Shown piece after piece: positions 3,768 to 47,196 of a DNA stretch of 64,000 nucleotides (positions within the stretch are counted from its first letter, which is position 1; every line of letters starts with the position of its first letter). The position numbers were made by a program, and so were the translations under genes. Under the pieces are notes generated by a model, which worked only from the letters and a program-made list of their open reading frames with translations, had not been told where the DNA came from and made no database searches. This stretch comes from Fibrobacter sp. UWR2 (GTDB taxonomy: Bacteria > Fibrobacterota > Fibrobacteria > Fibrobacterales > Fibrobacteraceae), in assembly GCF_002210285.1 (NCBI RefSeq), contig NZ_MWQE01000003.1, positions 1 through 64,000 on the forward strand. The letters are read 5' to 3'.

Positions 3768-4481
3768 ATGGTGGACGCAACTATTCTCGGACTGCTGAAG
3801 GGCGTTGAGCTCTTTTCGGAACTGAGCGAAGAACAGATTGGGATGCTCGCCGACCTGGTGGTTTCCCAAAAATTCAACCGCGACGAGACGGTTGTGCTCG
3901 AGGGCGACGACTCGGTGCAGGCTCTGTACCTGATTGCGTCGGGCTCGGTGCAGGTCTACATGACCGGCGTCGATGGGCGCGAGACCATCCTCAGTTTCCT
4001 GGAACGTGGTGACTTCTTCGGCGAAATGTCGCTCATCGACGGCGAACCGAGGTCCGCCTCGGTGCGCACCGTGACCGACGCGCAGATGCTCATCATCCAC
4101 CGTGAATCATTCCTCAAGCTCATCCGCCAGTCCCCGGAGATTGCGATGGGCCTGTTGAGCGAACTCAGCAAGCGCCTGCGCAAGGCGAACCGCCAGATTG
4201 GCTCGCTCTCCACGATGTCCGTGAGCGGGCGCGTGGCCGGCACCCTCCTCAACCTCATGGAAGAACGCGGCGTGCGCATCCACACCGACAACGGCAGCAT
4301 GGTGACGGTCATCCACAACCGCCCCACTCAGCAGCAGCTGGCCGACATGTCGGGCACCACGCGCGAAACCGTGAGTCGCATCTGCTCCCTGCTGGTGAAG
4401 ACGAACGCGATTGCCATGACCGGCAAGGACATCGTCATCTTCGACGAGAGCGCGCTGCAAGAGAAGGCTACCAAGGGCTAG
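3768..4481 (+). CDS. Crp/Fnr-family transcription regulator
   Basis: This is a 237-residue regulator with an N-terminal cyclic-nucleotide-binding-type beta-barrel (LLKGVELFSELSEEQ to about 120, including GDFFGEMSLIDGEPRSASV). A connecting helix follows, then a C-terminal winged helix with TQQQLADMSGTTRETVSRI as the recognition region. The barrel keeps the GE..L.DG..R pattern of nucleotide-binding members, so cAMP or a related ligand is possible; no Fnr-type cysteine cluster is seen. The start is set at ATG 3768 because AAGGAG (3754-3759) lies 8 bases upstream; a GTG at 3759 would overlap that site. It follows purA by 21 bases. Confidence 0.93.
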   Translation: MVDATILGLLKGVELFSELSEEQIGMLADLVVSQKFNRDETVVLEGDDSVQALYLIASGSVQVYMTGVDGRETILSFLERGDFFGEMSLIDGEPRSASVRTVTDAQMLIIHRESFLKLIRQSPEIAMGLLSELSKRLRKANRQIGSLSTMSVSGRVAGTLLNLMEERGVRIHTDNGSMVTVIHNRPTQQQLADMSGTTRETVSRICSLLVKTNAIAMTGKDIVIFDESALQEKATKG

Positions 4482-4484
4482 ACC

Positions 4485-5258
4485 GTGGCGAAAATAAAGT
4501 CGTTTATAAACAAATTCCTTACGTGGCTCAAGACCTCTTCGCTGGTAAAGGCGTTCGTGGCCTGGGTCATTCTTGTTATTTTACTCGCATTCGCCGTAGA
4601 CAAGATCGTGATGCCCATTCTCGCTGGCTCCTTGACGAGCACGGGCGTCGTGCCTACGCTCGAAGGCTTGCCGCCGGAGGTTGCCGAAAAGAAACTCGAT
4701 TCCGCCGGATTCAAGTACGAATGGCTCGAAGAGGGCCGCTACAATTCGCAGGTGCCCGAGGGCATGGTGCTGGTGCAGATGCCTGCCGCCGGCCGTGTCG
4801 CCAAGCTCGGCCGCACGGTGAAGCTCACGAAGAGTCTCGGTATCCGCGAGGTGGAAATCCCTGACCTGCGCGGCAAGAGTCAGAAGCAGGCCGAAATCTC
4901 GCTTACGCGTGCAGGCCTTGTACGTGGCGAAATCGTGAAGGGCGCTCACGCGAGCATCCCGCGCGGCGTGGTTATCCGTACCGACCCGATGGCCGGCAAC
5001 AAGGTGCGCCTCGGCGACACGGTGAAGGTCGTGATCTCGGCTGGCGCCACTACGGGCAAGGTAATGCTGCCTTCGTTCGAAGGCGAGATGATGGATAACG
5101 TTTACCCGAAACTCGAGGCGCTCGGATTCCGCGTGGGCAAGGTCAAGCGCGTGAAGGGCCAGAACGGCGAACTTTCGGGAACGGTGCTCGAGACGGCGCC
5201 CAAGGAAGGCGACTACCTCAAGCCGGATTCCAAGATCGACTTCGTGATAGTGGATTAA
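4485..5258 (+). CDS. Membrane-anchored PASTA-repeat protein
   Basis: This 257-residue protein has one N-terminal membrane helix (about residues 20-47) followed by three PASTA domains (about 53-118, 119-188, 189-257). Each carries the typical P-x-(L/F)-x-G and late G-(D/K)-x-V features, for example EIPDLRGKSQKQAE. PASTA domains bind cell-wall muropeptides or beta-lactams in kinases and penicillin-binding proteins. Here there is no kinase or transpeptidase domain, so it is probably a periplasmic wall-sensing or scaffold protein (inference). It begins at GTG 4485, three bases after the Crp gene, and its last codon is five bases from the next start. Confidence 0.85.
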   Translation: MAKIKSFINKFLTWLKTSSLVKAFVAWVILVILLAFAVDKIVMPILAGSLTSTGVVPTLEGLPPEVAEKKLDSAGFKYEWLEEGRYNSQVPEGMVLVQMPAAGRVAKLGRTVKLTKSLGIREVEIPDLRGKSQKQAEISLTRAGLVRGEIVKGAHASIPRGVVIRTDPMAGNKVRLGDTVKVVISAGATTGKVMLPSFEGEMMDNVYPKLEALGFRVGKVKRVKGQNGELSGTVLETAPKEGDYLKPDSKIDFVIVD

Positions 5259-11000: not shown

Positions 11001-11540
11001 GTGGATTCGCTCAAGTCCCTGCAGCCGATGAGCGTATTTGTAGCGGACGCCGTTCCGGGCAAGAAGTCTGCGGGGCCGGAACTGTACGCCCTGCATCGCA
11101 GTAGCCTTTCCGCCTATCGCCTGCACAAGGCTTCGGCAGATGCGGCAAGTGCCCCCGCGGCGTGGGCGCTCCCTGCCGGCGGTAACGAGCGCACCGGCTA
11201 TTTTGACGCATCGCTCCTTGACGACGTGGAAAAGGAAACCGAGAAGGACGAGATAAGCGAGTTCTTTATCTACCCGAACCCGGTGCGCGGCGGCAATGCG
11301 AAGGCGCGATTCACGATTGGTTCCGTGGCGTTTAAGGCCGAGCTGGAATTCTATGACATTACGGGCCTTTGCGTGTACAAGACGAAAATGGATGATGGCA
11401 TTATTACCCGCGGGCGCAACGAGTTTGCACCGCTCGACCTGAAGAATCTCGGTTCTGCCGTGTACACTGCACGCCTGAAGGTGAAGTTCAAGGACGGAAA
11501 GACGAAGCAGAAACTCTACCGCGTGGGTGTTGTCAAATGA
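8082..11540 (+). CDS. Secreted M6-like protein with degenerate zinc site, FG-GAP-like repeats and C-terminal sorting domain
   Basis: This 1152-residue exported protein has a signal peptide (about 1-24). The N-terminal part resembles M6/immune-inhibitor-A peptidases, including WLKHFEFAKNYYSTVSGGN and the later AAWERAYMGW. Where active members have HEFGHxLGLP, this protein has NQIGRELGLP (280-289), so both zinc histidines and the catalytic Glu are replaced. The middle (about 600-1000) has beta-propeller-like segments with DxNxDG-type loops (DLDRDGDVD, DINGDGYPE, DVNGDKTPE). The C-terminus (about 1060-1152) starts FFIYPNPVRGG and looks like a type IX secretion or FlgD-like sorting domain. It overlaps the next start by four bases (ATGA). 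It is likely a surface-binding pseudoprotease (inference). Confidence 0.8.
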   Translation: MKILSRVFFALLLCLSLAPMSFAVDTLQVFALRIQFQEEKTDNSLTTGVGLFDIEKKDKSTYSLDPPGRRGTAGYWLKHFEFAKNYYSTVSGGNVVIDARIFPDPSSGSTAYTLDKQIIDYNRTGKKKGEKTAEFDEARSRDYLTFVYDAIAAAAKDSSAEGPFRIPLSKNPNVKRAYMIIHAGASRLLDGGSMGTKGADTPGDFIDVYIAGDDWQYLMADSAKSKSAKAVTGITSEGDTATTGIYIPGGTTDTLRSVMVVSETASQDGLNWGVNGIMVNQIGRELGLPNTHDVVKGISRLGYFDVMDFAGYNAGNGFMPSMPAAWERAYMGWSNVKEVRPVAGKPVTVDIAAAGTGKGTEIVKVSLSASEYLLIENRQRSWNKEGTIDVVLGSAGADSDTTIRTVPVDSLNLVFEDSVCVKGKCKWNGRKAKGLIVGLDSYDAGLPASGIVVWRVNDWYLRETLKYGVANFWGGDTLRDHQFGVAMVEADGVLSIGKTFKNALGEDTYDYGSGTDLLPHKRMPAEGSKQKYKTVTEIGSTGYANTKTSQGGYTGIKIKVDVPKDAREEKTANAFQGDSVVNYAALSIRVTISIDDGSIEGGQFPRNVGLNSAVRGAVFVDDPENEGEKILVVGAEDGTLQAFNAMGDTLFVADTAIVQKSLTRDVAEREVPLYRVAASYGPLVGLASDGKNVYSLHANKLVKTSFIGGIPVQKSYPVDSATAGPLVYDGYVYFAEKSGDRKVNAAEFEDGASAGVRVTVADNDVKNVTDMAYCGNNDADGSARFAYVTADGRLVIPMHGMNKKLNGKDGETWRVACTDLDRDGDVDAIVVGSRGTVADVALRGYTKSYSTDAMRWSKEYKRGAAGTSGLEDETSGIAIGDINGDGYPEVVFLGDNLVYAIDRSGLPIAGFPVKISRGSPIFGFFSDPVLVDVNGDKTPEILVPSNDGLVYAYTGKGTEVKDGFPLAAGSFEYVDSLKSLQPMSVFVADAVPGKKSAGPELYALHRSSLSAYRLHKASADAASAPAAWALPAGGNERTGYFDASLLDDVEKETEKDEISEFFIYPNPVRGGNAKARFTIGSVAFKAELEFYDITGLCVYKTKMDDGIITRGRNEFAPLDLKNLGSAVYTARLKVKFKDGKTKQKLYRVGVVK

Positions 11541-12493
11541 TTTATGGTGCTACACATAAACTAACACTTGCGGGTGTGTTCGCCTCGCTCCTGTTTGCGC
11601 TCGCTGCCTGCACTGTGGATGGCGACCCCGTCTCGGTGGAACCTGTATCGCATGGCGGCAAGCACTTGTCGAGTTCCGCGCAGTCTTCCGACAGCAAGTC
11701 TTCGGGCGTGGAATCTTCGAACAGCGAATCTGCGGAAAATGAATCCTCCAGCAGTGAAGTTGTAGACGATGTGGATCGCGACTCCACGGTTTACAAGATG
11801 TTCGAGTGGCTTGAATTTGACTCCGGCAGGGTGGAGATAAATGCCGTCAAGTTCACTTTCGACAGATATGCTGTTGCCAGTACCGAAGTCACGCAGGAGG
11901 CCTTTGTGGCGGCGATGGGCGGCATGCCCGAGCAGCCGCAAAAGGGTGACGACTACCCCGTGGTGAATGTCTCCTGGTTTGATGCGGTGCTTTTTTGCAA
12001 CGAACTCTCGAAGATGATGGGCTTCGATACGGCGTACACCTATTCGTCCGTGGGTAGCGAGAACTTCTTGAAGGATGTCGAGATTGACTACGGCGTCGAG
12101 GCCTTCCGCCTGCCTACAGAAATCGAGTGGGAAATCGCTGCGCATGGCGGTTCAAGTTCCAAGTACTACTGGGGCAACGAAGTAGCCTCGGACTACGTGT
12201 ATTACGGACAAACTACGGGCCCGGTTGAGGTGGCGAGCTACCCCCCGAATCCCTACGGACTTTACGACATGGCGGGCAACGCCGCCGAATGGGTGAACGA
12301 CTGGTACGGTACGTTCCCGACAAAGGATATGGACAATTATACGGGTGCATCGAAGGGAACTGCCCGCGTTGTGCGCGGGGGAGGCTGGAGTGACCCCATC
12401 AAGGACTGCGCTCCGGATGTCCGTGCGAAGAAGGACCCGCTCTACACTGCTATGACACTCGGATTTCGCGTGGTATACTCGAAAGGGTTCTAG
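11537..12493 (+). CDS. SUMF1/FGE-sulfatase-domain lipoprotein
   Basis: This 318-residue lipoprotein has a lipobox ALAAC (Cys at about 25) and a serine/acid-rich linker (about 40-75) typical of Fibrobacter surface proteins. A formylglycine-generating-enzyme-like domain follows (about 85-318), with YPVVNVSWFDAVLFCNELS, FRLPTEIEWEIAA, YDMAGNAAEWVNDWYG and VRGGGWSD. The C-terminus reads GFRVV where true FGE enzymes carry their copper-binding cysteines, so catalysis of formylglycine formation is unlikely; many such domains are binding or structural. It is translationally coupled to the M6-like protein through a four-base overlap, which suggests they work together on the surface. Confidence 0.85.
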   Translation: MIYGATHKLTLAGVFASLLFALAACTVDGDPVSVEPVSHGGKHLSSSAQSSDSKSSGVESSNSESAENESSSSEVVDDVDRDSTVYKMFEWLEFDSGRVEINAVKFTFDRYAVASTEVTQEAFVAAMGGMPEQPQKGDDYPVVNVSWFDAVLFCNELSKMMGFDTAYTYSSVGSENFLKDVEIDYGVEAFRLPTEIEWEIAAHGGSSSKYYWGNEVASDYVYYGQTTGPVEVASYPPNPYGLYDMAGNAAEWVNDWYGTFPTKDMDNYTGASKGTARVVRGGGWSDPIKDCAPDVRAKKDPLYTAMTLGFRVVYSKGF

Positions 12494-44641: not shown

Positions 44642-44663
44642 TACTCAGTTCAGAGATTTGGAT

Positions 44664-45401
44664 ATGCGATTATTTGTATTACTAGTATGTGTATTGTCGG
44701 CGGCCCTATTGGCGCGCCCGATTAATGACGGCAACAAACTGTTTGCCAAGGGCGACTATGCCGGCGCCCTGGAAAAGTATATGAAGGCCCGCGAGGCCGA
44801 ACCCGCTAACCCGCTCCTGTTCTACAACATCGGTACGTGCCAGTACAGGCTCGGCAACTACGACGAAGCCAAGAAGGAACTCGAGAGCGCCGTGCGCATG
44901 CCGGATAAGAAGATGGCCGCGAAGGCCGCCTACAACCTCGCGAATACGCATTTCCGTATGGGCGAGAAGGCCGCCGAAGGCAGCGAACGCATTGCCGCGT
45001 GGCGCGAGTCGGTTGCTTACTTGAAGAAGGCCATCGACCTCGACAACAATTTCGAGAATGCGAAGAAGAACGTGGAAATTGTCCAGCGCAAGCTGAAGGA
45101 AGAACTCGACAAGCAGAAAGAGAACAAGGACCAGAATCAGGATCAGGACAACAACCAGAAACAGCCGCCGCTTTCCGAGAAGGCGAAGGAAGTCCTGGCG
45201 CGTGCACTCCAGCTTTGCAAGGACGGCAAGTACGCCGAGGCGAAGGAGATGCTCGAGAACCTGATTGCCGAGGACGAGACTGCGGGCCAGCTCAGCGGCC
45301 ACGTGCAGCGTATCGATGACGTCATCGAGATCAAGGCGGGCCGCAAGCCCAAGGCGAAGATTGACGCTAGCAACACCGACAACGACCTGGAGGTAATCTG
45401 A
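44664..45401 (+). CDS. BatC-like TPR protein, first of a pair
   Basis: This 245-residue exported protein has a signal peptide (about 1-17). TPR units follow (DGNKLFAKGDYAGALEKYMKA, FYNIGTCQYRLGNYDEAKKEL, AAYNLANTHFRMGEKA), then a DQNQDQDNNQ stretch, then another helical pair (ARALQLCKDGKYAEAKEMLENL). It resembles the TPR components (BatC/BatE) of the VWA-domain Bat complexes in Bacteroides and spirochaetes. No BatA, BatB, BatD or MoxR gene is adjacent here. ATG 44664 starts the signal peptide cleanly; a TTG two codons earlier is less likely. It overlaps the next gene by one base. Confidence 0.75.
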   Translation: MRLFVLLVCVLSAALLARPINDGNKLFAKGDYAGALEKYMKAREAEPANPLLFYNIGTCQYRLGNYDEAKKELESAVRMPDKKMAAKAAYNLANTHFRMGEKAAEGSERIAAWRESVAYLKKAIDLDNNFENAKKNVEIVQRKLKEELDKQKENKDQNQDQDNNQKQPPLSEKAKEVLARALQLCKDGKYAEAKEMLENLIAEDETAGQLSGHVQRIDDVIEIKAGRKPKAKIDASNTDNDLEVI

Positions 45402-46066
45402 TGAAAAAGATGATGCCTATAGTCGCGGTGCTTTCTCTTGCTGCCGCAGCGTTTGCCGCCCCGAAGAGTGCGAGCGCCTACTACAGCGATGCCGCCTTCC
45501 AGTATATCGAAAACCGTTTGCCCTCTGCCGAGATTACTTGCAACGAAGGCCTGCAATACTACCCGAACGACCAGAAGCTGCAAATGCTCCTTGACCGTAT
45601 TAAAGAGGCCAAGGACGAACAGAAGAACGAGAACAAGAAGAACGACAAGAACCAGGATAACAACCAGGACCAGAATCAGGATCAGAACCAAGATCAGAAT
45701 CAGGACCAAAATAAGGACCAGCAGAACCAGGACCAGAACGGCGATGGCAATTCCAGCGGGTCCGAGAGTTCTTCGAGCCAGGGCGATGACCAGAATCAAG
45801 ACCAGCAGGGCGGCGGCCAGTCCAGCAGCAGCCAGGGCGGTGAAAGTTCCGACAGCAATGGCGGGCAGCAGCCCGAGCCGCAACAGCCTGAAGAGAATTC
45901 CAGCGAAAGCAATGGTGGCGAAGACGAGCAGGAACAGCCCGTGCAGATGGGCGAGATGAGCCCCGAAGAGGCGGCCCAGCTCCTGAAGGATTTCGACGAA
46001 CAGAACGGTGAACGCAAGCCGTGGAAACCCGTCCGCGGCCAGGCCAGACCTGCAAAAGACTGGTAA
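45401..46066 (+). CDS. BatC-like protein with Asp/Gln/Asn-rich repeat, second of a pair
   Basis: This 221-residue exported protein has a signal peptide (about 1-20), a short TPR-like region (YYSDAAFQYIENRLPSAEITCNEGLQYYPNDQKLQMLLDRI), and then about 100 residues of low complexity. The latter begin with repeats of DQNQ/NQDQ, followed by Ser/Gly/Asp/Gln-rich sequence. It ends with an acidic helix (MSPEEAAQLLKDFDEQNGE) and a terminal KDW, a feature of BatC proteins. The repeat DNA is built from CAGAATCAGGAC-like units and could change length by slippage without shifting frame. A terminator follows. Confidence 0.75.
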   Translation: MKKMMPIVAVLSLAAAAFAAPKSASAYYSDAAFQYIENRLPSAEITCNEGLQYYPNDQKLQMLLDRIKEAKDEQKNENKKNDKNQDNNQDQNQDQNQDQNQDQNKDQQNQDQNGDGNSSGSESSSSQGDDQNQDQQGGGQSSSSQGGESSDSNGGQQPEPQQPEENSSESNGGEDEQEQPVQMGEMSPEEAAQLLKDFDEQNGERKPWKPVRGQARPAKDW

Positions 46067-46094: not shown

Positions 46095-46121
46095 ATCCCC
46101 GACCTGGTCGGGGATCTTTTT
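46095..46121 (+). terminator. Rho-independent terminator after the BatC-like pair
   Basis: ATCCCCGAC, loop CTG, GTCGGGGAT, then C and five T: a perfect nine-pair stem. The T-run merges into the promoter-like element of the expansin gene. Confidence 0.9.
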
Positions 46122-46129
46122 TATATTGT
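46122..46129 (+). promoter_or_regulatory. Promoter -7-like element ending 5 bases before ATG 46135
   Basis: TATATTGT directly follows the terminator T-run, then ATTAC, then ATG. No ribosome binding site is present. Confidence 0.5.
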
Positions 46130-46134
46130 ATTAC

Positions 46135-47196
46135 ATGAGACTTTATGTCCTTGTTTTTTTATGTGCGCTTTTGACTGCGGCGTTTGTCGCCTGCGGTGAC
46201 GATTCCAGTTCCGGTACGGATGCCTCAGTTACGGAAAGTTCATCGGAGCAGGCTCTGTCGAGTTCCGCGCTGTCGCCTGAACGTTCGTCTTCGAGTGTCG
46301 CACCGGTATCGAGTTCCGCCGAGGTCGAGTCGTCGAGTTCGGAGACGCCGGCATCGAGCGATACTCCCGAATCCAGTTCCGGCGACGTTTCCAGTTCCAG
46401 CGAAACGGGGCCCGAATCTAGCAGCAGCGAAACTGCTCCGGAATCTTCCGAAGATGACGGCGACGATGGCAAGTGCACCGACTGCGATAGCTATACGGCA
46501 GCCGACCCGGAACTCACTGAAAACGGCGGCAAGGGTTCCGTGACTACCTACGGGAGCATTACCGCAAAAGAAACGAGCCTCGGTGGTGCCTGCAACTATG
46601 GACAAACGAATATCCAGTATTACGCGGCTATCCATGTGAATGTTTCTTCGGGTGATGACAAGGGCCCGTGGGATGGCGGTGCGGCCTGCGGTGGCTGCGT
46701 TCGCGTGAAGGCGAAGACTCCCGATGGCTGGAAGCGTGTGACGGTACGCATTACCGACCGCTGTCCCGACGCGAATTGCGGTGTCGACCTGGGCGGAGCT
46801 CCTGCTGCCGATATCATGGGCGACCGCGTGGGCCGTTACTATGGCGAATGGGAGTTCGTGAGTTGCGAAGGCGTCGATGGCGTGTGGGGCGATTCTACGT
46901 CGCTCTGGGTCAAGGAAGGCGCAAGCACTTTCTGGAGCATTGTCCAGGTGCGTAACCCGAAGGACATGGTCAAGTCCATCACGATTTACGGGGTCGATAC
47001 GAACGATTTTTATGAACTTGAAATGGTCGTCGGCACAGAAAACTTCTGGACGGTTCCGCAGGGAGTCTTGCAGACGGACAACCGCTACCGCGTCGTGGTG
47101 AAGTATCGCACCGGCAACGACGACGAATGGCATATCAAGGGCTCCGAACTCGCTGTACCCGAGGCGAACCTGTATCTGTACGAACATCGGGAATAG
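46135..47196 (+). CDS. Lipoprotein expansin (DPBB plus CBM63-like)
   Basis: This 353-residue protein begins with a lipobox (AAFVACGDD, Cys at about 20) and a serine/Glu/Pro-rich linker of about 100 residues. An expansin module follows. The six-stranded double-psi beta-barrel has GACNYGQTNIQYYAAIHV, CGGCVRVKAK, VTVRITDRCPDANCGVDLGGAPAADI, with the key Asp of the DL-x-x-x-A motif. The second domain (STFWSIVQVRNPKDMVKSITI to the end) resembles CBM63. Expansins loosen cellulose-xyloglucan contacts without hydrolysis. Tethering through a lipid anchor and a long linker is unusual compared with free bacterial expansins and would keep it on the cell surface. Confidence 0.9.
   Translation: MRLYVLVFLCALLTAAFVACGDDSSSGTDASVTESSSEQALSSSALSPERSSSSVAPVSSSAEVESSSSETPASSDTPESSSGDVSSSSETGPESSSSETAPESSEDDGDDGKCTDCDSYTAADPELTENGGKGSVTTYGSITAKETSLGGACNYGQTNIQYYAAIHVNVSSGDDKGPWDGGAACGGCVRVKAKTPDGWKRVTVRITDRCPDANCGVDLGGAPAADIMGDRVGRYYGEWEFVSCEGVDGVWGDSTSLWVKEGASTFWSIVQVRNPKDMVKSITIYGVDTNDFYELEMVVGTENFWTVPQGVLQTDNRYRVVVKYRTGNDDEWHIKGSELAVPEANLYLYEHRE

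Follow-up and report, generated by a model that had tools for sequence, protein, structure and literature searches.

A predicted lipoprotein expansin with a serine-rich stalk in Fibrobacter

A gene in the window (the whole 64 kb stretch of Fibrobacter sp. UWR2 DNA analysed here) encodes an expansin that is predicted to be a lipoprotein, with a complete two-domain module behind a lipobox and a long Ser-rich linker. We consider it probable that this is an outer-membrane lipoprotein, in which a non-hydrolytic two-domain expansin is tethered facing outwards and loosens fibres at the point of cell contact, beside anchored hydrolases. How Fibrobacter achieves contact-dependent degradation of cellulose without a cellulosome or free cellulases has been described as an open question (PMC6851124). 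The predicted tethered expansin, found in nearly all complete genomes of the genus, may be a candidate for the contact-dependent step that can be tested through a single gene. Taken alone, the expansin adds only modestly to what is known, since both lipoprotein expansins and expansin-like genes of Fibrobacter have been published before.

Results

The gene and its protein comprise the following features.

46135-47196, + strand: expansin open reading frame, 353 amino acids (coding part 46135-47193)
46135..46191, + strand: predicted signal peptide, residues 1-19
46192..46194, + strand: Cys20, predicted to be lipid-modified, followed by Gly-Asp-Asp
46195..46476, + strand: Ser-rich linker (stalk), residues 21-114, 39% Ser by composition count
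46510..46869, + strand: expansin domain D1, a double-psi beta-barrel, borders approximate (structures matching D1 only start at model residues 10-18 and mostly end at 127-138)
46888..47184, + strand: expansin domain D2, a CBM63-like beta-sandwich, borders approximate (structures matching D2 only lie within model residues 138-234)
47194..47196, + strand: stop codon, with no T9SS C-terminal domain after D2

The precursor has the traits of a lipoprotein, namely a charged n-region, a hydrophobic stretch and a lipobox (FVAC) closed by Cys20, the lipobox being called by eye and by pattern match under a permissive rule. The lipobox ahead of the module, as proposed in the initial annotation, is thus borne out, and it recurs in the homologues described below. 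The same annotation gave the linker as roughly 100 residues rich in Ser, Glu and Pro. Its length (94 residues) and Ser-rich character stand, and Ser/Glu/Asp-rich is the better description, given 37 Ser, 12 Glu, 9 Asp, 7 Ala and 6 Pro. The expansin module occupies residues 115-353, and these 239 residues make up the C-terminal two thirds of the protein.

Profile searches relate the module to the EXLX1 subfamily. The NCBIfam model expansin_EXLX1 (NF041144) matches the full protein with E 8.1e-16 and 57.9 bits, and the module alone with 59.4 bits; both scores are below the curated cut-off of 100 bits, so that the module is a relative of this subfamily and is filed outside it. The same model matches all 30 members of an alignment of homologues hand-picked for spread (23 from Fibrobacter, including that of the window, and seven outgroup sequences). 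Pfam Barwin, EXPB1_D1 and DPBB_1 each match the full protein at about 5e-4 and below their cut-offs, and Barwin barely passes on the module alone (21.2 against 21). Pfam Expansin_C (PF01357) is an uninformative marker here, with zero matches in this genome and equally zero in control genomes. Glyco_hydro_45 has no match at E<=1 in the expansin protein, compared with 83.9 bits for a stalked GH45 protein of the same genome.

An AlphaFold model of the module, built from the 30-row alignment, has a pLDDT of 85.5 and a pTM of 0.83. Foldseek returns 12 matches at E<=0.001, all of them two-domain expansins or grass group-1 (pollen) allergens of that fold, the best at 5.6e-10. By VIA-align, ten expansin entries (eight proteins) reach Z 14.5-17.3 over 186-203 residues; the remaining matches listed, which include kiwellin, loosenin and GH45, stay under Z 10 and align over essentially a single domain. 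Thus, among the matches listed by both programs, those over the full length are expansins only. The solved expansin 9ms5 is also matched at the profile level (E 4.2e-14). In the model and in both structure comparisons, D1 is followed directly by the D2 beta-sandwich, the arrangement by which the expansin family is recognized. The sequence comparisons and the predicted structure confirm that the gene encodes an expansin module with a complete two-domain fold.

The DPBB_1 match belongs to a lytic transglycosylase family, and it raises the alternative of a periplasm-facing lipoprotein like RlpA, a lipid-anchored DPBB lytic transglycosylase, that would bind or remodel the cell's own peptidoglycan, with the stalk reaching the murein. 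BsEXLX1 does bind peptidoglycan (PMC10501053), and the roughly 94 residues of predicted disorder could span the periplasm. However, DPBB_1 scores 20.4 bits on the full protein against a cut-off of 28.8, a complete D2 follows D1, a Pfam scan of the full protein found no SPOR match at E<=1, and the listed full-length structural matches are all expansins, so that the protein does not qualify as a member of RlpA. The reach of the stalk also appears to be no constraint, given stalks of 11-27 residues in four members of the genus and none in some relatives from the same class (below). We therefore regard the RlpA-like explanation as unlikely.

Residues required for expansin function are known from BsEXLX1: D71 and D82 in D1, together with an essential Tyr73, and for binding by D2, K119 and an aromatic platform of W125, W126 and Y157 (PMC11040781, PMC5072189). 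Asp94, Asp104, Lys146 and Trp153 of the module correspond to D71, D82, K119 and W126 and are invariant in all 30 aligned sequences, and the W125 equivalent (module position 152) is Phe, Tyr or Trp in every one. Two other positions are replaced throughout the alignment. The place of Tyr73 is taken by Cys96 of the module. The solved expansins 9ms5, 7wvr and 4jcw have a Cys at this position as well, so Tyr73 does not define the expansin family as a whole. The place of Tyr157 is taken by an invariant Glu188, which aligns to a Tyr of 7wvr that is taken here as the probable equivalent of Y157. Judging from these comparisons, the module is complete, yet its cellulose-facing surface appears to be unlike that of BsEXLX1, with a difference at one of three aromatic positions. 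The expansin module (DPBB plus CBM63-like) that the initial annotation called intact is therefore complete in fold, with Z values up to 17.3, and altered at the Tyr73 and Tyr157 positions. Its six Cys are likewise invariant in all 30 sequences, fitting for an exported protein.

Another possibility is that the tethered module is a cellulose adhesin, which holds the cell on the fibre without loosening it. A role as molecular anchor has been proposed for bacterial expansins (PMC5072189), cell adhesion has been called crucial for cellulolysis by F. succinogenes (PMC6851124), and the binding residues K119, W125 (as Phe, Tyr or Trp) and W126 are kept. However, a pure D2 binder would need less than what is conserved here: the equivalents of D71 and D82 are invariant in 30/30 sequences, and D1 holds 49 of the 59 invariant columns of the alignment. 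A purely adhesive protein thus seems improbable to us.

Among the homologues of the genus, a lipobox Cys precedes the module in all 57 distinct sequences with a closed 5' end that remained after removal of outgroup loci (below 60% identity), loci open at the 5' end and repeated N-termini. The distance from this Cys to the module ranges from 11 to 154 residues (median 97; for L032, the script picked the first of two close Cys) and the intervening stretch has a median of 38% Ser. In the four members of the genus with the lowest identity (L061-L063 and L114), the stalk measures only 11-27 residues. In four relatives from the same class, all of a single genus, the module (42-45% identical) directly follows a short N-terminus with no Ser stalk, and the lipobox is clear in two (L102 and L103) and ambiguous in the others (L098 and L100). 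In another family, three genomes (L097, L099 and L101) have a module of 46-48% identity behind a longer N-terminal part that has no lipobox by the rule used. The homologues show, at the level of sequence, that the linker varies freely while the module stays conserved. The comparison, made without a tree, points to an older module in front of which the stalk was elaborated within Fibrobacter. Two of the three longer N-terminal parts were scanned (L097 and L099), and both have sub-threshold matches to carboxypeptidase-regulatory-like domains; L097 has sub-threshold T9SS-sorting-like matches as well, ahead of the module rather than C-terminal.

Cleavage by signal peptidase I with release of the protein, or its shedding with outer membrane vesicles, would place its action away from the cell. 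Bacteroides surface lipoproteins have been linked with vesicle packing (PMC6222051), and extracellular vesicles have been described as contributing when F. succinogenes degrades cellulose (PMC6851124). However, retention of the lipobox Cys in 57/57 homologues argues against signal peptidase I, and vesicle shedding is compatible with a lipid anchor. We consider release in either form very unlikely.

The module is present in 31 of the 33 Fibrobacter genomes that are at least 90% complete and in 47 of the 61 genomes of the genus overall, once per genome with a single exception (G013). Outside the genus, it was found in 8/39 genomes, one of them with a weak match (G085). Related loci in named genomes (66-93% identity) are labelled Fibrobacter in 37 of 38 cases; the exception, L065, comes from a horse-faeces bin labelled 'archaeon', probably a binning error. 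A tblastn search of the plasmid collection with the expansin found no match. The dN/dS of the module is 0.040-0.075 in all seven comparisons, made with members of the 30-row alignment that share 89% identity or more with the window sequence, and by this measure the module is under purifying selection. A chance origin of the architecture is unlikely because of this constraint and the lipobox shared by 57/57 homologues. G013, a Fibrobacter MAG of 77% completeness, has two other expansin copies and one copy (L064, about 4001-4718) that is split between two frames and may be a pseudogene, an assembly error or the product of a mixed bin.

Discussion

The step on which the proposed display depends most is orientation. 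Loosening of fibres at the attachment site requires that the lipoprotein be on the outer face of the outer membrane, and an outer-membrane lipoprotein of a Gram-negative bacterium may face the periplasm. In an envelope proteome of F. succinogenes S85, 40 of the 49 putative lipoproteins that were quantified decreased on cellulose, and the cellulases were placed on the T9SS route (PMC6851124); we count both against the proposed explanation. Under that explanation, signal peptidase II would process the precursor at Cys20 and the lipoprotein would be placed in the outer membrane on its outer side, the weakest step. The disordered Ser/Glu/Asp-rich tether would keep the expansin away from the membrane. 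D2 would bind cellulose or hemicellulose through Lys146, the aromatic residue at position 152 and Trp153, on a platform modified by Glu at the Tyr157 position, and D1, by means of Asp94 and Asp104, would loosen fibres at the place of cell contact. Hydrolases with a like anchor, for instance a GH45 endoglucanase, would work beside the expansin.

That bacterial expansins are usually freely secreted, as was initially assumed, is a dated view, given that one third of expansin precursors in diderms carry lipoprotein signal peptides, a figure attributed to de Sandozequi et al. 2022 (PMC10501053). Diderm lipoprotein expansins (Burkholderiales, Xanthomonadales and Myxococcales; PMC10501053) share with the Fibrobacter protein an expansin that follows a lipoprotein signal peptide. 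In contrast to these, the Fibrobacter protein has a long Ser-rich stalk, and it lacks the T9SS C-terminal domain that expansins of a superphylum including Fibrobacteres are said to have (PMC10501053): a Pfam and NCBIfam scan of the full protein found no T9SS sorting model at E<=1, and the protein ends with D2. EXLX1 expansins (B. subtilis YoaJ 2BH0/3D30, Streptomyces 9MS5, Clavibacter 4JCW and Xanthomonas 9MS4) and the fungal 7WVR have in common with it the two-domain fold, the equivalents of D71, D82, K119 and W126, and a KEG...W..iQVrN stretch. With 19-27% identity to these proteins, the Fibrobacter protein differs in its six invariant Cys, the Glu at the Tyr157 position, the predicted lipid anchor and the Ser stalk. 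The expansins of Clostridium clariflavum (PMC5072189) are likewise brought near hydrolases, there in the cellulosome and by a dockerin, whereas a lipid anchor is predicted in Fibrobacter.

Among rumen expansin-like proteins, Fibrobacter was reported as one of the main bacterial sources, with 1.3 genes per Fibrobacter genome (PMC12632131). These probably include orthologues of the Fibrobacter expansin, and 'lipoprotein', 'signal peptide' and 'anchor' each occur zero times in the main text of that paper. Literature searches on Fibrobacter expansin lipoproteins and on serine-rich lipoproteins of Fibrobacter succinogenes yielded no title pointing to this protein; an earlier description of the Fibrobacter expansin anchor is possible.

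The anchor and stalk are also found on other proteins of the same genome. A search with the whole protein hits 27 other places, all through its first 140 residues, and 23 of them have a lipobox and, over the 60 residues behind it, a Ser content of 20% or more; one of the 27 (L016) breaks the lipobox rule by an Asn and is lipoprotein-like by eye. Pfam matches on 15 of the 27 are Fib_succ_major (five), histidine phosphatase (two), and GH45, GH16, PETase-like and DUF4832 (one each), with no match in four. As these places were chosen by similarity to the N-terminus of the query, they show sharing and not frequency, and for the same reason no evidence can be drawn from their CGDD. A query-independent sample of 464 kb (the 64 kb window and 400 kb of the genome, 340 predicted genes) has 51 lipobox candidates, nine of which, including the expansin, have at least 20% Ser. 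Anchor plus stalk is, on these sequence counts, a general module of the lipoproteins of this genome rather than specific to the expansin. The GH45 endoglucanase (L020, 1474-2817) has a lipobox and a Ser-rich repeat linker ahead of it. A further Ser-rich lipoprotein candidate lies in the window at 11537-12493, with 32% Ser in the 60 residues after its Cys.

The CGDD of the expansin places Asp at +3 and +4 after the Cys, and Asp is kept in 39/57 homologues at +3 and in 33/57 at +4. The acidic +3/+4 resembles the export signal of Bacteroidota lipoproteins (SDDDD in B. fragilis, PMC5080379); that paper does not mention Fibrobacter, and the Fibrobacterota case is made by analogy. Among the 50 lipobox candidates other than the expansin, a list that includes false lipoproteins, at least two Asp or Glu at +2 to +5 were found in 8/12 proteins counted as Ser-rich with the threshold set to 0.15 and in 8/38 of the rest (P 0.006). 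At the three other thresholds looked at, the counts were 6/9 against 10/41 (0.18, P 0.022), 5/8 against 11/42 (0.20, P 0.058) and 4/6 against 12/44 (0.25, P 0.074). The link between an acidic pair after the Cys and Ser stalks is thus weak and threshold-dependent, and we treat it as a lead towards outward orientation.

A wider reading, which we put forward tentatively and hold to be rather doubtful, is that Fibrobacter displays a fibre-acting kit (the expansin, GH45, GH16, esterase-like and Fib_succ_major proteins) on the outside by means of a lipobox, a Bacteroidota-like CGDD export signal and a fast-evolving Ser-rich stalk. The shared CGDD and stalk would give a testable rule for which Fibrobacter lipoproteins are displayed. 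If true, the kit would be a second, lipid-based route beside the T9SS route to which F. succinogenes cellulases have been assigned (PMC6851124), and part of the answer to how Fibrobacter degrades cellulose without a cellulosome or free enzymes.

Upstream of the gene are four features.

44658-45401: TPR gene, which recurs in 14/38 named loci
45401-46066: low-complexity protein, in which a stretch of 37-42 residues is 92-100% identical in 15/38 named loci
46095..46115, + strand: terminator-like hairpin with a T run behind it, shortly before the expansin gene
46122..46127, + strand: TATATT, -10-like, ending exactly 7 nt before the start codon

The AAA ATPase downstream recurs in none of the 38 named loci; these neighbour counts cover the available flanks, which are short at some loci. 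No link to fibre degradation was found for the TPR gene, the low-complexity protein or the AAA ATPase. The low-complexity protein has a long Asp/Gln/Asn stretch, then a Ser-rich one, and no Pfam match.

The hairpin is weak when taken alone (two such found against 1.8 expected in shuffles), and a sigma-70 promoter scan gave one hit against 0.9 expected, with none at the expansin start. Of 55 distinct 5' regions from Fibrobacter, this one included, 20 have TATATT at exactly 7 nt from the start and 26 have it at 6-8 nt, and no other distance within 59 nt accounts for more than five. This recurrence makes it probable that the expansin mRNA is leaderless. The Fibrobacteria class was given the ordinary Shine-Dalgarno type in one survey (PMC10783764). 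There looks to be a class of leaderless mRNAs in Fibrobacter, with a modest genome-wide excess: in the 464 kb sample, TATATT precedes ATG 8, 10 and 9 times at spacings of 6, 7 and 8 nt, compared with 1-8 times at each remaining spacing between 0 and 30 nt. Of the 27 occurrences at 6-8 nt, 18 start an open reading frame of at least 80 codons.
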